From positions 6,857-70,856 of the forward strand of contig JAENRP010000044.1 of NCBI GenBank assembly GCA_024741835.1: a stretch of 64,000 nt of DNA, given 5' to 3'. Position 1 is the first letter of the stretch. The number at the start of each line of letters is the position of its first letter. Of this stretch, positions 23,926-62,200 are shown one piece after another. This DNA is from Diplocarpon mali. Taxonomy: Eukaryota > Ascomycota > Leotiomycetes > Helotiales > Drepanopezizaceae. The notes under the pieces are model-generated. The model was not told the DNA's origin. It saw nothing but the letters and a program-made list of their open reading frames with translations, and searched no databases. Position numbers and translations under genes: made by a program.

Positions 23926-26900
23926 TCACTCATCAAATGCGCCTTCACCAAGATCTACCTTCCCTACACTCCAGATCTCCCGCTCATCATCCACTTCATC
24001 ATTCGACAGCCCCAATCCGCCCTGTCCACCCTCGGCCTCTTTCCGCTCGCGCGCCGTGTTACCGAGTCTCAAAGCCACACGCTTGAAGTAATCCTGCATG
24101 CTTCTCTTTTGGTTTGGAGGCAAGTCTTGTGTGGATATGTACTTATCGAAGACCTTACTCTCATCATCGACGACGTTGAAGAGGGCCATGAAAGCTGCTT
24201 CGGCGGCAAGCTTGACTGGGATCACAGGATCTCGCACGCTGGCGAACACTGGGAGTGCCAGTAGAGGTAAATGGGGTCGAATTGTCATCATGTGGTGACG
24301 GCAGGTCGTACGAATGACCACTAGGGCGAGACGACGCGTGTCTACAGAACTGCCAGGCTTGACAAGGGTAGCCAGTGTCTCGAACAATGGCTTTATGGTC
24401 TCATAGTCGCCGCTGCGGCTGTCCAGGAGAAGATACTTACCTGCTGCAAGAACGCAATTATCGGAAATAAAGTTCTAGACACGTTAGTTGGCGACATATA
24501 ACAGTTTTTGATGCTTACATTCTTGCTTGCCATGCCTTGGCAGATGGCCGGCGGAAGCTCTTTAGCAAAGGCATTTTCGGTCAAAGAACCTGGGGCTTCC
24601 ACCAATACCGCATTCAGAGCAAGAACAGAAGATTGGCTGAAGTGATTTGGTAAGACACGGTTCTTGATTAGGCCAGCTGCATTCTCTGCGGGCAGATTCT
24701 TGACGAGAGCACCAAGCAACTTGGCATTAGTGATGCCCGTGGAGACGTTGTTGTCGTCAGAGTCCGTATCGATGAGACTTAAGACTGCTTCTCTTGAAGC
24801 CTCGCTCATGTTAGCTCCTGCCTTGCTGATTACTTCGTAAAGTGCCTTCAGCATAGCATTGCGGACTCCAGTATCTGATGTTCTTGACCCGGTGACCAAT
24901 TCAGCGATCAAAGGATCAATCCGGGGAGTCAATGTAATCAAAGTGCCGAGGGCCTTCGCTGCTCGTGTCCTCAAAACCTCGCTGGAAGTATCGGCCAAAG
25001 ATTTTGCAAAAGTTCTCTGAAGTTGCGGCAAGAAGGGCTTCAGGAATGTCGGAATCTTCTCAAGAAGGTTGTTCAAAGTCAATAGAATTGCAGCCTTGAC
25101 GTCAACTGAGCGTTCTGATACGACTCTGATGAGAGGCCCGGTGATTTGTGTGACGAATGGCTTCAAAGAATCTCCGCTGGTTCGATCAACGATATCAGAT
25201 ATAGCAAGAGCTGATTGAGTTCTTTGCTCAGGAGTACCATTCATCAAACCTTGCAAGAATATGGGCAGGATAGCGTTGATACCCTTCGGCAACGAGAAAC
25301 CAGGCAGATTTGCACCTGCAACGCCGACTTGCTGTAAAATTTGCCGAGTAGAGTAGACAAGAGCTTCCATCTCCTCTTTCTTCAGGCGCTTTTTAATAGT
25401 TAGTATCAGTGACTGGGTACACCAGTCCATGGGGTGGTGCCCGGGCATGCTCTAAATCAACTGCAGATACATCTGAGCAGGAGCATGCCCGGGCACCACA
25501 ACCACCACTTAGAAAGAGAAGGAAAAACTTACAACAGTGAATCCAGACAATGCAGTCCACGCGGCCTTGACAACTTCCTTGTCGCTGTCATCGAAAGAAA
25601 TAAGTAAAGCCCGAATAATATCCTGATTATAGCGGGAGTAGTCAACTGTGGCGGAACCGAAGAATTTGGCAAGATGATAGTCTGTCGCAGCTCTTCTGCG
25701 ATGATCGTCATGCTTTACAAGTGCAAGCAACACACTCATAGCGGTGTTCAAGCCGTCGAACTCATCTATGGAAAGTACGACAGCATCGAATGATGCATCA
25801 AGATCAGCTCGAAGCTCGTCATCTTCGCAAACAATGATATTGTCCATGAGCGAGTTCAATATACTTGGCAAGCGTCGAGTCATTGCAGACCCTGCAACAG
25901 TGGACAGAGAAGCAAGAGCCTTGGCGTTGAAGGAGGATATTGGAGATGTTATGAGAGTGGGTATCAAGTTTGGAAGGATAATGTTGGATCGTGTTGCCTC
26001 AGTGAGCAGCGTCAGGAGAGCAGACAATGCATTTTCGGCCTCATCTTTCGTTCGAAGAAGACTAAGAAGGTAAGGCAAGACCTGGTCTACGACTCTCTTA
26101 CCCAAGATATGTTGCAAGGAGTCGAAGGCCTCCGCCGCTGCCTCTCGAACATCCCCAACCTCGTCCTGAATGAGTTGTTAGTAAAGTGGCTGAACAATAT
26201 AGTCCATAGCTTGGTGCCCGGGCATGCTCTTTCCTGAATCAACTGCAGATACATCTGTGCAGGAGCATCCCGGCACCACCACCAAGAAAAAAGACAGAGA
26301 GATACATACGGTCAGAGCAGTACGAACAATCGATATCAGTGTATTCTCATGGTCTTCCAATGCATCAGGCGAAGCAGAAGAAATCAGTTCGCGCAGGGCA
26401 ATACAGATACCCTGCTTAGCGTCTGCATCGGTAGAAGTTTGAAGTCCTTCTTCAAGTGTCGGCAGCAGCGTTGATAGTACACCATCACCAGCTTTTCGAA
26501 TCAATTCTCCAAGTGCGTTGCCGGCAATGACCTTCTGCTCCATACTGGAACTACCCAGTCTTCGAATAATCAGCTGGGACAGGACCGGTATCAGCTCCTT
26601 CAACGTTCTCGGGGAAGCAACAAGAGCCTTCCAAACATTAACAGCGGCAGTTCTGACTAGTCCAGAAGTATCGCAGCGGCAAATGTAGAGCGAGGAGAGA
26701 ACCTTGTTTCTTTTCTCTTCGCCAAGAACTTCTAACAGCGACACTCCTGCTTCTTGGGCACCGTCCTCCATCTCATCTGCCTCGGTCTGAGCAGAAATAC
26801 CGGTAAGATTGAATAGAAGATCACCGACCAGCTCCACAGAACTGAGGCGAATTCGGTAGCTGTCATCGGCCAGGCCTCGCTCAAGTTCTGGAAGAAGAAG

Positions 26901-29900
26901 GTCGATAGATCTCGTAGCGAAGTTCTTGACAAGCAGACGTCCAGCCCGTAGGGAAGTATCACGAATCGACTCGATGTCATCGGCAAGACCAGACAGAATA
27001 GGAGGGATGATTCTACTGAGATAGTTTGCGAAGCTGTTACCGAAACAGACAGGCAAGAATATGAAGAGCGACATGAAGCCCTCGCGAACAGAAGCTTTGG
27101 AGGATGCAACATTCTGAAGTATCGTGGGCAATGTTTCCTCAAGGCGACTGGTTCCAAGACCTGCGAGAACCTCACTGAGAGCTTGAGCAGATCCAAGTCG
27201 GTCTCCAGCACCAGTTTCAGACTTTAGAGTTTGCATAAGGCCTGGAATGAGGTCTGGGAGCGCATCCTCGCCTAGCTTTTCGATCAAAGAGCCCAAAGCT
27301 TTAGATGCGGTTGCGCGAGTTGTGGGAACAGGATCGACTATAGCAATCTTGAGGCCTGCAACCAATATTGGCAGGTGAGCGACGAGGTCTTTTCGTTCTG
27401 TAAGATGCGCCAAACTCCCGATAACCTGGGCAGATTTGCGCTTCGTTGCTGAGCGGTCCCCCAAGCCTCGTTCCAAAATGCGAGCCACGAGAGCGAGAGA
27501 TGGAGCATCGAGGTAATGAACGAACGATACTTTTATCAATGCATCTAGAGCATCGTCTGTGTACTTCGTTGGGTCGCTCAATGCTTTCAGGAGGACATCG
27601 ACCAGTCCCTTGATTTCGGGATTGTTGATCACCTCCCCGAAGCGTTTCAAACTTCGGTTGGCAGCGAGTCGAACTTCTTTGTGACTGTCATTGAGAACGC
27701 CAGTCAAAGGTGGAATAATCTCTGGCAGACTCTGTGCCAGTTGCTGGGGGTCAAGGTATGCCATGGCACCAAGCAGATCGCATGCACCTTTCTTGCTCCG
27801 CCATTGCGAGTCATCTAGCCCTTCAAGCAACGTAGGTAAAATTCTCTTGACACCATATGAGCTCAGGCTGGCAAAGCAGGCCTTTGCAGTTGCCAAGCAA
27901 CCTTCCCGTACATCAGCACTCGCGTCACCAAAGCTTGACAGGAGCTGAGGCACTATTTGAATGACATAGGGCTCGAAGACACGACCAAGAATGGTGGACA
28001 GAAGCTCATATGCCAGCAAAGCGCCCTCGCGATGGTTGACGTCCTTCTTGTTCTCGATACCACTTTTCAGTGTTGACATGATTCGGTATTCTCTGAGAGC
28101 AGAGATTCCTTTGCCATGGACAACCCCGGCAAGACCGTATGCAGCTCCACGACGGCCAGCATACTTCTTCGAGTTAAATAGTCGATCAAGAACGTGATGG
28201 ACATAGTCTGGAGTATTTTGGCTTGATGCTCGAACAAGCGGAGGTAAACACTCTGCAACTGCGTACTGTACAGCTTCTGAGGGTGTACTTAAAGTGTCCA
28301 ATAGTCTTTGGACAACCTCTGGCACCCGAGAATCTCCTGCCTTGAGATGCCGGGCCAGGGCACCATACATAATGATGACGGCTTCGTTGACACGATCCGC
28401 AAAATCAGACCCTTTGTCGGGAGCCTCAAGGGTCTGCTCGAATGTCTTCATAAGAGCTTCAACCTTGTCTTTGCCATGGATTGCAATGATAGAGATTGCA
28501 GCTTCGACCATCTCTTCTCTTACGTTTGGATCTCTGTCACCCAGAGGCCCACGTTCGATGAGAAATCGCAAGAAGTCATCCAGTAGATTCTCCTCAAATA
28601 CTGGAGCAAGCTCTTTGAATGCAAGAGCAATACCATTTCTGGCTTCCCATGGGTCCGAAAGATCCATCTTCTTAGGCATTCCATACTCGTCGAGTTGGGG
28701 TACACGAGGCTTCGCCAGGTCCTGGTATGTAGCCTCTAATCGTGCCAGCACATCTCGGAACGTCGATGGCTGTAGCTTCACAGCCTCAGCTAAAGACCGT
28801 GCTGCTGCCCTCCTTAGCTGCTTATCAGTATTCTCGAGATACTTTAGCTGTCTGAAAGGAGTAGTCTCCGAAATAGTAAAATTACTCTCATCCCATATCT
28901 CTTGACCGATCTCAACATTTTCGGCAACGTCATCGTGACATGCCAGCCATATTTCTTCCGAAAATTCAAACTCACTCATGTCAATATCGGCGCTGATAGA
29001 CTGCAACACAGAGGTTCTGACAGAGATTTGTGGGACGGTAGCGCCTCTTGCAAGAATAGCGATCTCTTGTTCGGTGATATTCGGCGCCAGGCAACGACAC
29101 AGATCCGCCAAGCAATCCTTGACTATCTTATAGTGCTGATTGTAAGTTTGCATAGAGAATATTAGAATAGACAAGACTTCTTCGCGGGGCACGAGGATAT
29201 CAACGCAAGCATCGGTGTGAAATGTGAGAAATTCCAAAGCCAGCACGATTTGAGCTTCAGCATCATCAGTCTCACCGAAACCTCCTTTGCGGAGAACTAA
29301 GAAGACGAGTGGAAGAATATACGTCAAGGAAACAGTGTCGAATGGACGCTGCTCTCCAGAAAATCGAAGACGATATAGAACTCGTGTAATAAGTGCACCT
29401 AGTGGTTCCTGAAGCAGATTTTCTTGCAGATAGGGAACATCCAATGCTCGCAGAGTTGCAATACCAATGAAAGGTCGAAGTGCACCAATACGACTTGGCA
29501 GTCTTTCTGCGCACATAATATATGCTTCGGGAGCAGCGTTTGCGGTTATCAAGCCAGCACCGGCATTGATAATGTCTACCAGAGCCTTCACTGCTGGACC
29601 CATCCAGAGACGTGCTTCTGTTGGAGGACCAGTCGCAAGACTTTTGATAATTCCGATACCACGCAACAGTTTTGCTTCAAGATGTCTTATCATAAGACGG
29701 ATGCCAGCTTCCTTCTTCAATTGAGCTTTGACCTTGGCAGTTTCTTCAGGCGTAAGCTTTTTTTGTTGACCTTTCTTCTGCGCAAGCTGTGACCTCAATT
29801 CCTCTTCCCATTTCAAGGTATCGTAGTCCTTGGTGTTTTTGTTGGGAACATATGATTGGGACTTTGAAGCAAGCACATCGACAAAAGCAGTGCCCTCCTC

Positions 29901-32415
29901 GGTTCGGAAGATAGCAGCCTCTGTTGGACCTACACTTGCTAGTTGAGACGGATCAAGATCTCGCTGTATGAGATCAACTATCTGGGAAGTCATTGCGTCT
30001 GGTGAAACGAAAGCAAGTTCGGCAGCGGCGTTGAACGCTGCGATCCTAACCTTTTCAGACCGCTGCAAAGATTCCTAGGGATTAATTAGTCGACATACTT
30101 CAGTAGCTTCGATCTGTTACCTACTGATTCGCTGAAGCTGGTACAGCTAAGAATTTGCTGCACCAAAGACTCTCCATATTCTCGCGCTAGTCCACCGGGA
30201 TCAACCTCAACGCGGAGACAAAGCTCTATCCAGCTGACCTGCGGCACCAATTCTGGCCGCGATATTACCAGCAAGGAGATCATTTGCTGCTTCCGAACTT
30301 CAGGCTCAACTCGGGTGTCTAGTTTAATAATTTCTGGTGCCGACAGGCAAATTGACTTGACGACAATGTGTAAGTTCTGGTTATCGGTCTTTGCAGCTGC
30401 GGCTGCTGTGTCTTTCTCCCCTGAATCGACGGAGTGTCGCCACATCCAGAGCCCATTGATGATGATTGAAGAAATTCGTGCTGGATCACGTATGTAGAGC
30501 TGCGAAAGGATACGTGAAGCGGCCTTCCTAATTTCAGGATTAACGCTAGATGAACAAATACAGAAGATGGTAGCTTGGGACCAGGCAGCTGCAACCGTGG
30601 AATCAAGCTCCAAGCTAGCGAGTCCTTTTGAAGCAGAAGACAAAGCTCGAATGAACCACTTGAAATCATCATCGCTGGAAAGCTTTCCATAGATTCGCTG
30701 ATTCAGCAAGTATGATGGCTTCGGTTCCATCGTTAGAGCGTGGCGCTCAATTTCAGACTTCTTCAGCGCTGCCTCCACTTTTGCAATCGAGCATAAACTG
30801 AGCTTTGAAGGTGCAATAGCTGTGAGAACGTAAGCACTGGTAACAAGGCCTGACTGTGCAGCTGCAAGTGGGTTTGCAGAAACTTCCTGCCATGTATCCA
30901 TCAAAATAGGTATGGTTGACTCGACAAGTTTAGAGAATTTGGACTTCAAAATCTCCGCGTCACTATGAGCCCAGAGGAGCTCTCCGAGACGAATGGCCCA
31001 TGACTTCTTAACGGGCACCTTTTTGTCGGAGAGTCCTCTGACAAAAGTATCGATCACTTGCTTGTCGATGTCAAGACCATGGAGCAGTCCCCATGTAACG
31101 TAGTGAAGAATCGTTGATGTTTCTGACTGAAGAGCCGCTTCATTGGTCTCCTTTCCAGCAACGCCAGCTATGGCAGGGGCGACATGAGTCACCGTGACCT
31201 CAGAGGGAGGTAGAACGGTAAGCATATCAGCATAGTTAGCTCGCTGTTCAGCAGAAGCTAATTTTCCTGATCTCAAGGGGCCGAGAATTTCTTGAGCAAC
31301 CTGAGTAATGAGATCTGTGTTGTGGCTTTTGAGGACCGCGGCTTTGAAGGCAGAGAAGGCGCCGTGTCGTACCACAGCATTCGTGGACTTTGTATTCGCA
31401 AGTAGTGGCTTCAATAAATTGTTGCGAAGAACATTGGAAAGATCAATGGAATCCGAAAACGAGTTGAAGAGCGGGGTGACCAAATCACTAAGCACTATTT
31501 CAGGTGCTCTGAGGAGAGCTTTTTCAAGGGCTGGGACGATGACTTTCTCCACATCTTCCAGTATCGTAAAGCTTTTGAAGAAATCACCCAAGGCTTTGGA
31601 TATATGCTCTGGTACCAGTGCCCGCGATCCAATGATTTCTCGTATGTAGAATGTATAGTAATCGGATTTCTTCGTCAACAGAACGTTCTTGGCATCAGGC
31701 TTTCTTGCACAAACTCCCGCAATAACTCCTAGCATAACGGCATTTTTTGCAGTTGGTTGCGAACTTTTAGCTGACAGCATTTTTACAGATTCTTCAATCG
31801 CCGTTCTTCCGGCATCGTCCTGAGAGAACACTTTTCGCAACCCACGTCTGGTGATAACGACCGCTGACCGCTTGATATTGGATCTGGTTGACTTGCTGAG
31901 GTAGAGATCCAGGATTCTGGCATTGCTTTCGATGACCAGGAGCCCCCATCTGTTCCAGTATAATGTGCCAGCCAGCTCCTGTAACAATATGTTACACCAT
32001 TCGATAAGGACGAACGCATTGGCCGGCGCAAGCCCTGGCTTTGCAGTCTCTGCGTGGACTGTCTTTACGAATTCAGCCAAAGCTTCAGGGGCGCACCCAG
32101 AATTGAAAATTGCCCTCAAGCATCGCTCTACAGCTCTTCGCGAATTTCGATCATGGTAGAATGGATATGTGGTAAAAAGGAGGCGCAGCAAAGGTGGGAA
32201 TAGTTGCTGGTTGATCCCTAGCACAAGAACACCATTAGCATAGCCTCGCATATGGAGAATCCGTTTTTAGGCCACCTACCCTTATTTGAGAGCCTTTCTT
32301 CGAGTGCATGCAAGTTACCCAGACGAATGGTGGTGGAAGAGGAAGATAGTGCTGCCTTGGTCGCACCGAGATCCAAATCCACCCCACTAATACCGTTGAC
32401 CTCCACCTCAGTCAT
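23926..32415 (-). CDS. GCN1: GCN1, activator of the eIF2-alpha kinase GCN2
   Basis: Six exons, 32415-32280, 32217-30125, 30074-26310, 26165-25533, 25388-24519 and 24474-23926, encode 2681 aa, close to the 2672 aa of yeast Gcn1. The whole chain is HEAT/armadillo repeats. The central part (about residues 1300-1700) has the eEF3-like block with SKKGACDLLGAMAYLDPQQL and DVREGCLATAKACFASLSSY. The C-terminal third corresponds to the region that binds the RWD domain of GCN2. GCN1 sits on stalled or uncharged-tRNA-loaded ribosomes with GCN20 and triggers GCN2, leading to Gcn4/CPC1 synthesis. Introns 3 (26166-26309) and 4 (25389-25532) are both 144 nt and are copies of one another (see findings); the others are 44-62 nt. 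The last exon reads straight through a GTAAGT (GKYLLLDSRSGDYETIKPL), so no intron is placed there. Confidence 0.95.
25389..25532 (-). repeat. Introner-like element, GCN1 intron 4
   Basis: The 144-nt intron starts GTAAGTTTTTCC and ends TACTAACTATTAAAAAG. It contains a perfect 19-bp inverted repeat (25434-25452 and 25481-25499, arm GTGGTGCCCGGGCATGCTC) around a 28-nt loop holding CAGATGTATCTGCAGTTGA. It aligns with GCN1 intron 3 from the pyrimidine tract after the donor through the branch point. Confidence 0.85.
26166..26309 (-). repeat. Introner-like element, GCN1 intron 3
   Basis: The 144-nt intron starts GTATGTATCTCTC and ends TTTACTAACAACTCATTCAG. The same hairpin is present, with left arm 26213-26229 and right arm 26263-26277; the right arm has lost two bases, so pairing is imperfect. 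The loop sequence CAGATGTATCTGCAGTTGA is shared with intron 4. Confidence 0.85.
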
Positions 32416-56294: not shown

Positions 56295-59200
56295 ATGGAA
56301 GATAACCCCGTTTCTGTTTCCGTCTGTCCCTATCGGAGACAAGTCACTCATGACCCGTCTTCTATTCAGACGGAGCAATACGAAGTACAAACCCAGAAAT
56401 TAGAGTTCTACCCGCCTGCGAAGTTCGAAGTGTCGCAGTCTGTTTACGGTAGGCCTTCGACGTTTACGGGCACGGAGAAGGATCTCGCTATGCTGGCGGC
56501 GTGCGAGAAAGGTGGTGCTGATGAGGATCATACAGTTGGTACGTTCTTCGCGGCTTATCTTGTTTCATGTGCGAGTCCATGGATGATCCATGTGCTGGAC
56601 CTTGAACAATGATGTCACATTTTTGCATGAAGATAATTGAGCGAGGACCATCGTTTGCGTTGTCGTCGATAGCATTGCTTAGAAGGTGCTAATTTCGCCG
56701 TCTAGACGACGATAACCCGGCCTCTACCGAGCCTCGGGGTGACGACGACTGCCAAGATAATATGGATAGCGAGGGATCGAGAGACGGTGACGGAGGTGGC
56801 GGGCCTTCAATTGAAGGAGAGGCCAGCATATCCCAACCTGTCACCTCAAAACCCGTTGCGAACGACCCGGAAGATATTCCTAGTCTGACACCTTCTGCAC
56901 CCGATCCGCGGAGCCAGGACGATACTCAGGAACAGACTTTGGATGTTGAGGTTTCCGGATCAACCGAAGCACAGGCCCCTCCGAACCCAGGCAGCGTTGA
57001 TTTGGCTGACGACACTGCTCCACCTGCTTTTGAGATCAAGCTAAAGGGAAAGAATAACAAACAATCAAAGAGAGAAGCTAGGAAGGATAAGAAGCAAGAT
57101 AAGAAGGGTAAACAGGCAGAGAAGGAGCCAGAGCCGGAAAAGCCAATTGACATCGAAGAACCAACCCAGAAGCCCGGCAAGAAAGGAAAAAAGGGGAAGA
57201 AGCAGGACAAGTTTTGGGAACCTGAGCCTGTCGTTGAGGAAGAGGTACAAGTCGAGAAGGAGCCGAAGCCTGAGAAGCAGGAAAAGGCTGGCAAAGGCAA
57301 AGGCAAGAAAAATCAGAAGGGAGGGAAAGGAAAAGACAAAGATAAGGGAAAGAGTCCGTCAGGCGTGCCTGCGATGGCAGACTCTCCAGGCAATGAGCCT
57401 ACTCCGCCGCCGTCTGACGAGCCAACGCCGCCATCCGACACGCCTGAGGAGAGCGAATCCAACCCTGTGGTTGACGATCCTTCCCCTGCCGACCCAGCGA
57501 ACCAGGAACCTGCAGCAGTCGAATCTGCCGCAGCAGAGACTCAGCCCGCTCCAGAAGCCCTTCCAAGAGCAGAACCGATACCCGCGCCTGTAGTCGAGTC
57601 CACGGAGCCTGTAGTAGAGGGCACCTCGAAAGCTTTAGATCAGTCTCCGACAATAGAAGAGCCTGCCGCTTCCGAAGATACTCCAGTCCCTGCGGTACGC
57701 TTACATCCTGTCACTGTACCCATTTCTCTAACGTCCCATAGGAAGAAACTCCCGCGCCGCCAGGAGAGCCGACTGGTGAGCTTGCGGTAAGTTCGAATTC
57801 TTGGTCATGTGACCTGGTACTGACTTCTCGGCTAGGCTGCGGAACCAGAGCCTGCAGAATCAGAGACCAAAGAACCAGCGCCTGCAGTTTCGGCGGTTGA
57901 AGAACCAGAGCCTAAGGAACCGGAGCCTAAAGAACCAGCGACTGCAGAACCACCGTCTGCGGAACCAGAGCCTGCAGTTTTAGCGGTTGAAGAACCAACG
58001 CCTGTAGAATCAGAGACCAAAGAACCAGAGCCTAAGGAACCAGCGCCTGCAGAACCAGCGCCTGCAGAATCAGAGACCAAAGAACCAGCGCCTGCAGTTT
58101 CGGCGGTTGAAGAACCAGAGCATAAGGAACCGGAGCCTAAAGAATCAGCGACTGCAGAACCAGCGCCTGCAGAACTAGAGCCTGCAGTTTTAGCGGTTGA
58201 AGAACCAACGCCTGTAGAATCAGAGACCAAAGAACCAGAGCCTAAGGAACCAGCGCCTGAAGAACCAGAGCCTGCAGTTCCAGCCGTTGAAGAATCTAGT
58301 CCTGAAACAGTGGTATGTGTTGGTTCTCAACTTTGACCTCTATATCGCTACTTGTTGAGAACTTGCCTGAGCGAATACCTGAATGCTCCAGGCGCATGCT
58401 TGAAACTGATCCGAGAGCCCTGTTGAGATTCCTCCTAGAATTCTTATCACTGACGATGTAAAAAATAGAAGGAGGAATTTCCAGTTTCAGCTGAAGATAT
58501 TAATCCAGAACCTGAGCAGGCGGTAAGTCTAAATTCCTCGCTTTCTCCATTCTAAAATCATAAAACGAATGTTTCTGCCGGCTACAATGCAAGGCGCTGA
58601 TGCCACACAGGAAGCAGAGACACCAGCGGCTACCGTCAAAGAAACCTCTGCTGAGCCTGTTGTGAGTCTTTCCAAGGACACGCGTCTTCCCTTTCCAGAG
58701 ATTTGGAAATCCAAGCTCAAATCGGGACTAACGTCACAGGTCGATGAAACACCGGCAGAAATACCGAAAGAGACACCAGCACCGGCGGAAGAAGCTCCTG
58801 CTGTAAGAATTTTCCTATATTCTTTGTGTCTTTGCAGAAGCATGCCTCCAATGGGAAAATCCGATTTCATTGATGATCGAACGGGAAGATATTCTTATTT
58901 CTAATCGTACTAATTACAATCAGACGGAAGAAACTCCGGTTCCTGCCGCACAAGAGCTTGCTGTGCCTGAACCGGAACCAGATGCCGTGGTAAGTATACT
59001 CTTGAGTATATTGGTCGATGGCCACATATGGGCCCTTTATATTTTCGCCTATAGATTGGAGGTTGCCGAGCTCTCAATTGCGTGCTAACGACATCTTAGA
59101 AAGAAGAATCTCACTCCCCTGCCCCTGACTTCGACCCACAAGAAACGAGCGTCCCTGAGCCTGAGACCGTTGTAAGTCAAGATTTATATTCCTATCTACA

Positions 59201-62200
59201 AAATAATAGTTTCGGGGCTAAAAATCGATAGAAGGAAGAAGCTTTAGCTGTTGATGCACCAGCGGAACCAGAGGTGGTAAGTTCTCTATCGTCGTTCCAT
59301 TTCGATTGGCATGTATTGTTAAGCGAATGTGCGTTAATAACATTTTTCAGGTCGCTGAAACCCCTAAAGCAGCTAGTGAGCCAGTGCCCGAAGCAGTCGT
59401 CGAAGATGCTGCCCCGGAACCAGTACCAGTAAGTCATCCATAATAATGACGTGATCGTCTCCTTTTCTCAAGCAATCAGCTAATAAATACTTACTAATAT
59501 GCACCAGGTCGCCGAGACTCCAGAGTCGGCCAGTGAGATAGTTGCTGAGCCAGTCGTTGAGGATCCCGCCTCGGAGAAAGATCCAGTAAGTGATCCATTG
59601 TGATGACAGTTTCTTCTCCTCTTCTTAAGAAATCAGGGCATGGATACTTATTAACATGCACTAGGTCGCCGAACCTCCAGAAGTAGCCAGTGCGGTTGCG
59701 AAGCCTGTTGTTGAAGATGCCGCCCCGGAGATAAAATTAGTGAGTTTACCCGCTGTTACTTCATTTCCATGGATCTTTGTATCAAGTGAACAGATTAGTC
59801 TAACATTCTTCAGGTCACCGAAACTCCGCAAGCAACTAATGAACAGGTTGTAGAGACAGTTGTCGAAGATACCAGCTCAAAACCAGAATCTGTAAGTCGC
59901 CCCTGCACACGATGAGACATATATTGGTTTGTCTCGGGAGACTCAGAAACTGATCGTAGTCAGGCTGCCGAATCACCGGAATCTGCACACGAAGAGACTT
60001 CTACCATGGTAAGTAAATGCCCTTCCATCTAGCTTTGAAATATTGCGGCGACGTTGTCACGTGCAAACAATGTCTCCTATCCCAAGTTGGCATGCCCGAG
60101 CACCGTCTGATGTGTCCCAGGTGCAAGATGTCCCTGAAGCTTCAGCAGAAGAAGTCAAGGAAGAGGAAAAGACACCAGCTGAACCAGAGCCTACTGCCAA
60201 CGAAAGTGAACCACTCCCAGCTGAGACTTTGGATGAATCGCCCAAGGATTCTGAGCCAGTTGTCCAAAGCAGCGAAGACGACGCTCCAATTGCGATTGAG
60301 GAGACAGATCATCCACCTTCCACGACTGAAGACCCTGCCCCTCACGAATCTGATTCCACCCCTGAGCAGTCTAGCGAAACGCAGGCCGAGAAAACTGTCG
60401 TCGCTGACGCTACTCCTGCTAAAGATGAGGAGCCTGTGGAGAGTGAAGCCACTGAAAATACTCCCGACGTGCCGGTAATTGATTATTGACTCGAGCCCAA
60501 GAACCCGATAGCTAAAGCTTTCAGGTCGATGTTTCAAAACCGTCTGAAGAACATCCTGTAGTTTCCGAGGACATGAAAGAAGAAGAAACGCCTATCCTTG
60601 AAGAGGAGGTGCAGCCGGCCCCTGCTGAAGCGGTAAGATAATGACTCTTCAATGATGAAATTTCAGCTAAACTTTCTAGGTCGAAGAATCTAAAACCGAA
60701 AAGCAATCAGAGGCCCCTGGGAAGTCGAAACCAGAAGTATCAGACCCGATTGTTGAGGAAAACAAACACTCGCCTGGCGTCGGACTGGTGAGTAGAATGT
60801 TGGAAAATGGCCAAACTAGTTTTTTGCTAATACGGTGTAGCTTGAGGAAACACAGCCGGCCGAGACAAACGAGGAGTCCGCTCCTACTTCGACTGACGAG
60901 AAAGGGGCCCCAGAAGCAGAGAATGAAGAAAAAGAACCTTCAGCTGCTGAGCAAGATGCCTCGGTAAGAGAGTCAGGAATGAGCATTGTGGCAGAAATCC
61001 TAACATGCAGCAAGGTCGAGCAGGTGAAGCCCGAGGAGCCGGTAGATTTGGATTCTAATCCATCAGAGAAAGAAAATGATGGTGGGTCTACGCCTGTTGA
61101 AGAAGCAACTCAAGCTGGGCCGGAAATCGCAGTAAGTCGCCCCAATTTTCTTTTTCCATGGCTCGGAAACCCCAAATTTTCCTCGAGCTTGTCAGAGGGA
61201 GAAGCCCATCAATCTCGATTTCAAAGCTGGATTTATTTCTCTATTCTCCGGGAAATCGTTCCCTTTGTAAACTATCTTAACTTGTATTCAGGTCGCCGAG
61301 ACCGAGCAGGAACCAACGACACCAGCCGAGACAGAGCAACCTGAATCCGATGAAAGCCCAGCGCCAGTCTCGGATAGCGAAGCTGCATCAGCCGCCGATG
61401 TTGTTGCAGATACACCTATCACCGAGACCGAAACCATCGACGTCGGGGCTATCAGTGAACCATCTGATGTTGTCGAGGAGGCGGACCCAGTCGTTGATAG
61501 TCCAGCACAGGGATCCAAAGAGGAGGATAGTACTGCTGTTGAGGCACCAGCAATTGTTTCAGGCGGAGGAGACGAGCCTGTCAAAAAGACTAGCGAGGAG
61601 GCCGAGACGACTCCCGCCGAGACTGAGGCCAGTCCTAGTGAAGATGTCGAAGCTGAAGCTAAGAGTGAGCCAGCACAACTCGAGAACCTCCCAGAAGAAA
61701 CAGAAGGCGATCAGGCAACTCCCAGCGAACCCCCTGTCGTGACGGACACTAGTCCTGTTGTCGACGATGCTGTTGTAGTTGAGAGCGCGCCTGTCGACGC
61801 CGAGAGTTCTGCGGTAGAGCCAGAAATTGAACAGCCCGCTCCCAGCAACTCTTCTTCCGAGGAAGAAAGCAAAGAGGCTACCCCCGCTCCCGTTCCCGAT
61901 GAGGCCGTAGCTGTTGGGGACGAGCTTTCACCCGTTGATAGCACTTCAGAAGTCGAAAATTCGCCCAGTCAAGAGGCTGGATGCGAATCAGCTGAGGTCA
62001 AAGATGAGCAGCCGGCTCACCACGATTCCCCGGTTTTATCAGACGAAGCTAGTAGCGAGCCCCCGGCAGTAAGTGAAGAGGTCAAAGACGATCCTCAAGC
62101 GTCGGATGAAAAACAGGCTGTAGAAGGGACCACAGAGGTAACATCTGTAACGCAAAGTCTCATTCAATATAATACTGACTGCTGCAAGGCGGCACCTGAA

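Follow-up and report, generated by a model that had tools for sequence, protein, structure and literature searches.

Two sister introns with a common hairpin core in the GCN1 gene of Diplocarpon coronariae

Two introns in the GCN1 gene of Diplocarpon coronariae have in common a palindromic core about 80 nt long, and no recognisable copy of that core is found elsewhere in the genome assembly. These sister introns are real and ordinary in their parts; what is unusual is their confinement to a single gene. The explanation preferred here, to which we give about an even chance of being correct, is that Diplocarpon gained an intron with a hairpin, of which a single further copy was then made inside GCN1. 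The origin of new spliceosomal introns is an old question, and in species that carry many copies the source is hard to separate from the product. A pair in a single gene, absent from the relatives examined and flanked by marked junctions, represents a minimal case, which allows source, product and target to be set side by side at the level of single bases in a few Diplocarpon and Drepanopeziza genomes.

The GCN1 gene and its introns

GCN1, which encodes an activator of the eIF2-alpha kinase, occupies positions 23926..32415 on the minus strand of the window, the whole 64-kb stretch of DNA that was analysed. The gene consists of six exons and encodes a protein of 2681 amino acids in a frame that is open after splicing. 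Its introns are, in order, 62, 50, 144, 144 and 44 nt long. The splice pattern that gives the 2681-residue frame bears out the original prediction that introns 3 and 4 are each exactly 144 nt, and the range of 44-62 nt given for the remaining introns is likewise correct. Intron 3 (26166..26309, minus strand) carries a damaged copy of the hairpin and lies in phase 0 after codon 1998. Intron 4 (25389..25532, minus strand) carries the intact hairpin and lies, also in phase 0, after codon 2209. They are separated by exon 4 (25533..26165, minus strand), which is 633 nt or 211 codons long, begins and ends in phase 0 and is free of stop codons. Judged from the sequence, both introns have GT...AG ends and a TACTAAC branch site (26177..26183 in intron 3 and 25399..25405 in intron 4, both on the minus strand), and the reading frame is open once they are removed.

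The predicted protein is 99.9% identical to a D. coronariae GCN1 protein, P0036, from which it differs at 2 residues. P0036 also has 2681 amino acids. It is encoded on a 2.29-Mb contig and thus belongs to a different assembly, and its equal length supports both splice patterns. No Rfam family was detected at the gathering threshold in the 64-kb window. A simple intron finder, run on a 264-kb sample made up of the window and 20 stretches of 10 kb from the same genome, returned only 11 candidates, which are too few to serve as a background.

The common core

In intron 4 the 5' arm of the hairpin, as it stands on the RNA (25481..25499, minus strand), and the 3' arm (25434..25452, minus strand) form a perfect inverted repeat of 19 nt, as had been predicted. 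The loop between them (25453..25480, minus strand) is 28 nt long and is itself partly palindromic. The repeat is internal to the intron, beginning at intron position 34 and ending 45 nt before the intron end. In the 264-kb sample no other perfect inverted repeat combines arms of 14 nt or longer with a loop no longer than 80 nt. In intron 3 the 5' arm (26263..26279, minus strand) is two single bases short of its counterpart, and the 3' arm (26212..26229, minus strand) is intact, with 18 nt that read as they do in intron 4; these limits were read off the sequence and a pairwise alignment, and a MAFFT alignment places the gaps elsewhere. The 3' arm of intron 3 is also perfectly complementary to positions 25481-25498 of intron 4. 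The loop is indeed common to both introns, but it is 5 nt longer in intron 3 (33 compared to 28 nt).

The two hairpins are in very different condition. The predicted RNA fold of intron 4 has an energy of -60.6 kcal/mol and a z-score of -5.31, and none of 200 shuffled sequences folds as well. For intron 3 the z-score is -0.63, and 58 of 200 shuffles fold equally well. The folds thus agree with the description of a nearly intact hairpin in intron 4 and a decayed one in intron 3. The two single-base losses in intron 3 are uncompensated, and this, together with a fold at the level of shuffled sequence, argues against strict structural selection.

The core is 84% identical between the two introns. 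Intron 3 with its flanks, used as a query against the 49.4-Mb assembly, finds intron 4 at E = 5.8e-18, and intron 4 finds intron 3 at E = 3.8e-18. Outside the core, the similarity does not exceed that of shuffled sequence, neither in the 5' flank (P = 0.50) nor in the flank that precedes the branch site (P = 0.28). The claim that the introns align all the way from the donor to the branch point therefore holds for the core and not for its flanks, and common descent of the whole introns is unproven. Their kinship as wholes is nevertheless suggested by the position of the core, which, with limits set by eye, begins 26 nt from the donor end and stops 35 nt from the intron end in both.

Apart from the two pieces of the core, the interval 25200-26500 contains no direct repeat of 14 nt or longer. 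The exons adjoining introns 3 and 4 are therefore not duplicated, and the statement that they lack similarity is upheld. The ends of the introns were compared as well; no word longer than 3 nt is common to both ends of either intron.

The restriction of the similarity to the core could mean that a palindromic element of about 80 nt, MITE-like or of the fold-back type, entered two unrelated short introns, or was moved by gene conversion. Such an event would leave the core alone alike and the flanks at chance, with the core conserved while the flanks diverged. Without the core, about 61 nt remain, and this is within the size range of the other GCN1 introns (44-62 nt). The explanation is unlikely, however, because two introns would have had to be gained independently in one stretch of a single gene, and the element would have had to arrive twice at equal offsets (26 and 35 nt). 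Furthermore, the element has no recognisable copies outside GCN1 in 49.4 Mb, and a comparison of the intron ends shows no flanking duplication there.

Number of copies in the genome

The 49.4-Mb assembly is a draft of 676 contigs, from which some copies may be missing. A DNA search of it with intron 3 gave matches in GCN1 only at E<=0.001, and a search with intron 4 gave four matches at E<=10, all of them at the two GCN1 places; the method skips very common words, and strongly decayed copies would escape it. Neither search found a copy of the element outside introns in the 49.4 Mb. Shorter and more permissive patterns were also used. The 18-nt loop sequence, with up to 2 mismatches allowed, occurs at two further loci, each with 2 mismatches, compared to none for the control, and a covariance model has no match at either locus. 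The 19-nt arm, with up to 3 mismatches, has 12 matches. Three are in GCN1 and nine are elsewhere, all nine with 3 mismatches; the reversed control has 13 matches. The gapped hairpin pattern CCGGGCAT-N20-50-ATGCCCGG occurs in the assembly in intron 4 only. The covariance model was built from introns 3 and 4 and applied to 270,036 bases, which comprise the window, L005, L006 and 20 stretches of 10 kb. Its only matches were introns 3 and 4 themselves and the opposite strand of intron 4.

At these thresholds a dispersed family was not seen in this assembly. The genome-wide family of introners that had been proposed is thus not borne out. The count of copies that fill introns comes to the two in GCN1, which is the result that had been associated with a local copy.

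GCN1 in related fungi

The comparison with relatives was based on 229 GCN1 proteins. These are the matches listed, including the best 120 of 2011 and the best 120 of 401. The 45 with an organism name were omitted, since these cannot show introns, leaving 184 without a name; the split was made by hand. Among these matches listed, 156 of the 184 are open reading frames that span both intron sites, and not one of the 156 has an insertion at either site. Most of them (104 of 156) are visibly unspliced DNA, as their reading frames enter, leave or cross introns 2 or 5. The remaining 52 bear no sign of unspliced DNA; they include five full-length reading frames (2678-2682 amino acids), probably cDNA.

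Searches of this kind favour long uninterrupted reading frames, and the bias was checked with an exon-sized query and with a query that reads into intron 3. Among the best 120 of 401 matches to the latter, most cover the exon half only. Nine cover 96% of the query at 54-59% identity, and in all nine the place of intron 3 is taken by ordinary exon sequence. None of the 228 listed proteins other than P0036 has an alignment that ends within 3 codons of codon 1998 or 2209, and no 6-residue word from the six frames of introns 3 and 4 occurs in the 229 listed proteins. One-residue gaps are present in P0034 near site 3 and in P0033 near site 4. Scans of genome contigs and viral contigs with exon 4 as the query returned no relative. 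The nearest of the listed proteins without an organism name share about 90% identity with the GCN1 protein of D. coronariae, and the very closest species are therefore absent from this group.

Judged by these comparisons, introns 3 and 4 look like young, lineage-specific gains. The original prediction that GCN1 acquired them recently is in agreement with the absence of insertions from all 156 reading frames as far as a lineage-specific gain is concerned, but 'recently' is doubtful, in view of junction codons that are partly shared with Diplocarpon rosae.

Two other features of the relatives' genes were observed. The reading frames of P0002, P0003 and P0010, from more distant fungi, begin at codons 1996-1997, where there is no conserved methionine, so that an independent intron near site 3 is possible elsewhere. 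A number of relatives' reading frames (e.g. P0001, P0156, P0158 and P0162) depart from the alignment at codons 2259-2263, which suggests another intron in these relatives that D. coronariae lacks.

Junction codons and timing

The exon codons next to the two introns differ from those of other fungi. Codons 2000-2001, just past intron 3 (26157..26162, minus strand), encode Glu and Val in both Diplocarpon species; in the other proteins they encode Ser (111 of 118) and Asp (116 of 118). Just before intron 4, in codons 2206-2209 (25533..25544, minus strand), residue 2206 is Gly (Ser in D. rosae) and residue 2209 is Val (Leu in D. rosae), and the other proteins have Glu (111 of 118) and Lys (112 of 118), respectively. 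The annotated protein of Drepanopeziza brunnea, P0042, has ordinary residues at both sites.

Gaps were omitted from this comparison, and a position was retained only if at least 80 proteins covered it; this left 1748 positions, compared with up to 118 proteins. Twelve of them are private to the two Diplocarpon proteins, and four of the twelve lie at most 4 codons from the junctions. The hypergeometric probability of such clustering is P = 2.2e-6 at 4 codons, 5e-5 at 3 and 1e-3 at 2, for a cut-off distance that was chosen after the data had been seen. Private codons cluster elsewhere too, at 1152-1154 and 2476-2489, and so are not independent of each other. When they are counted as 7 clusters, 2 of which are near the junctions, P = 1.6e-3.

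Because the junction codons are partly shared with D. rosae, they suggest that the introns probably predate the split of D. coronariae and D. rosae. Both introns would then have been present before the two species parted, an interpretation drawn from one annotated D. rosae protein. The arrival of the introns, or later adaptation to splicing, would have altered the neighbouring exon codons. At site 4, the AAG with which the intron ends may be the lysine codon that the exon has lost, and GTT may have been brought in at the donor side.

Origin of the pair

The preferred explanation, that a hairpin-bearing intron was gained and then copied within its gene, can be set out as a sequence of steps. 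We infer a direction and a route for the copying, a timing relative to Drepanopeziza, the occurrence of both introns in D. rosae and a role in splicing. A single hairpin-bearing intron would have been gained in the Diplocarpon lineage, probably once Drepanopeziza had diverged and while D. coronariae and D. rosae were still one lineage. It would have been copied once, into a second site of the same gene 633 nt away. The excised intron RNA, shielded by its hairpin, might still have been near its source gene, and could have been reinserted either through reverse splicing coupled to reverse transcription or through capture where the DNA was broken. Afterwards the parts outside the core would have diverged, and the palindromic core would have been kept alike by constraint or by gene conversion. 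The hairpin presumably shortens the path from the donor to the branch point and may allow an intron of unusual length still to be spliced. Exact reverse splicing predicts seamless junctions, so that the changed junction codons speak for the repair of a break instead.

Two other routes of gain were considered and rejected. Tandem genomic duplication reportedly creates sister introns within one gene. The GCN1 pair differs in that the flanking exon is not duplicated (25200-26500, repeats of at least 14 nt), which is at odds with tandem duplication. A MITE or a DNA-transposon introner should not look like this either: there are no terminal inverted repeats, no word longer than 3 nt duplicated at the intron ends and no copies outside GCN1, and DNA transposition is therefore unsupported. 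The best fit is given by copying inside the gene by way of the excised intron RNA.

Relation to known introners

Fungal introner-like elements are longer than ordinary introns. In its presumed manner of working, the GCN1 pair resembles such an element, but it has two recognisable copies where the class has many. It is not multi-copy and for this reason is not filed as an introner-like element. The literature cited by Fekete et al. 2021 gives hundreds or more copies for fungal introner-like elements (PMC8469720). Those of Dothideomycetes are gained introns with a decaying predicted structure and no target-site duplication (PMC4457414). The GCN1 pair is similar in that it looks newly gained, has one intact and one decayed hairpin and has no word longer than 3 nt common to both ends of either intron. 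The Dothideomycete context in which the original prediction had placed the introns is inapplicable, as D. coronariae is a Leotiomycete (Drepanopezizaceae). Pairs within one gene are also known among introner-like elements. In four genes reported by Collemare et al. 2015, two elements are separated by 145-626 bp (PMC4457414), compared to 633 nt in GCN1. The GCN1 pair is unlike these elements in having two recognisable copies, in one gene of a Leotiomycete, with codon-changed rather than seamless junctions.

The sister introns and stwintrons of Hypoxylaceae are similar to the GCN1 pair in their low copy number, strong internal symmetry, lack of target-site duplication and occurrence, in some genes, as two copies (PMC8469720). 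Their inverted repeats, however, are terminal and about 45-55 nt long, and many are nested stwintrons; the GCN1 repeat is internal and 19 nt long. An RNA-based copying route has been proposed for such symmetrical introns by Fekete et al. 2021, and break repair was proposed for one insertion in Hypoxylaceae in which 3 exonic nt were lost (PMC8469720). DNA-transposon-like introners (PMC9860276) have inverted repeats inside the gained intron, as GCN1 does, but the GCN1 introns have neither terminal inverted repeats nor a target-site duplication. According to Gozashti et al. 2022, ascomycete introners are an outlier in lacking both of these features (PMC9860276).

A true introner-like family of Diplocarpon or its relatives, of which only the GCN1 copies are still recognisable and the rest have decayed or reside in other species, is an improbable alternative, on a par with the entry of a palindromic element. 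The anatomy of the introns fits a family: they have a hairpin, canonical splice sites, a new position and no target-site duplication. The published pairs in single genes fit it as well (PMC4457414), as do three genes of one Hypoxylaceae strain with two sister introns each, and the sister stwintrons of Hypoxylaceae number only 23 (PMC8469720), so that a small number of copies is no sufficient reason to dismiss a family. On the other hand, no third copy appears at E values up to 10, the relaxed patterns give no clear excess over the control, and copies scattered at random would be unlikely to leave two neighbours within a single gene as the only survivors. That the pair is an artefact of assembly or annotation is extremely improbable, since only the coincidence of equal lengths speaks for it, whereas the copies differ at many places and a D. 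coronariae protein of the same length from another assembly supports both splice patterns.

Introners have been reported in Pezizomycotina (PMC9860276). Among the papers searched, none linked introners with Leotiomycetes. The term 'introner-like' and Leotiomycetes do occur together in one paper, where the passages concerned name the class for its repeat content only. The GCN1 pair may extend hairpin sister introns to the Leotiomycetes.

Possible function of the hairpin

In the predicted folds the path from the donor to the branch point is reduced from 131-132 nt to 34-42 steps, values that stand without a shuffled control. The hairpin may thus aid the splicing of an intron that is at least twice as long as its neighbours.

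When the 941-nt region of the pre-mRNA is folded freely, 78 pairs form between introns 3 and 4 and only 5-6 within each. If no pair is allowed to span more than 633 nt, the best fold is less stable by 16.7 kcal/mol; the span limit bars other long pairs too, and folds of a 941-nt sequence are unreliable. The model raises the question of whether introns 3 and 4 pair across exon 4, which would give an mRNA that skips this exon in frame, a circular RNA of exon 4, or both. We consider such pairing very unlikely, because the local hairpins form first during transcription. If it did take place, the copying of a palindromic intron across an exon would have produced a self-contained pair of complementary introns flanking that exon. 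One round of intron copying would then suffice for a new regulated exon or circular RNA, and introner-like copying would be linked to the birth of alternative splicing.

Other observations

Several features outside the pair were seen. A repeat-rich gene with many exons contains, at 59389-59731 of the window (plus strand), tandem units of 157 bp that resemble an exon plus an intron. Its introns have apparently been duplicated along with the exons, in contrast to those of GCN1. A long in-frame array based on a 15-bp unit, encoding a sequence rich in Pro, Glu, Ala and Lys, occupies 57837-58294; periods of 90, 120 and 210 were also called. Certain database entries for GCN1 are fused to, or named as, ribosomal protein L19 (e.g. 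P0085, P0091, P0104 and the PDB chain 8i9x_LR), and this naming perhaps stems from neighbouring genes. The 18-nt loop sequence has nine exact matches in viral contigs of IMG/VR (L019-L027).
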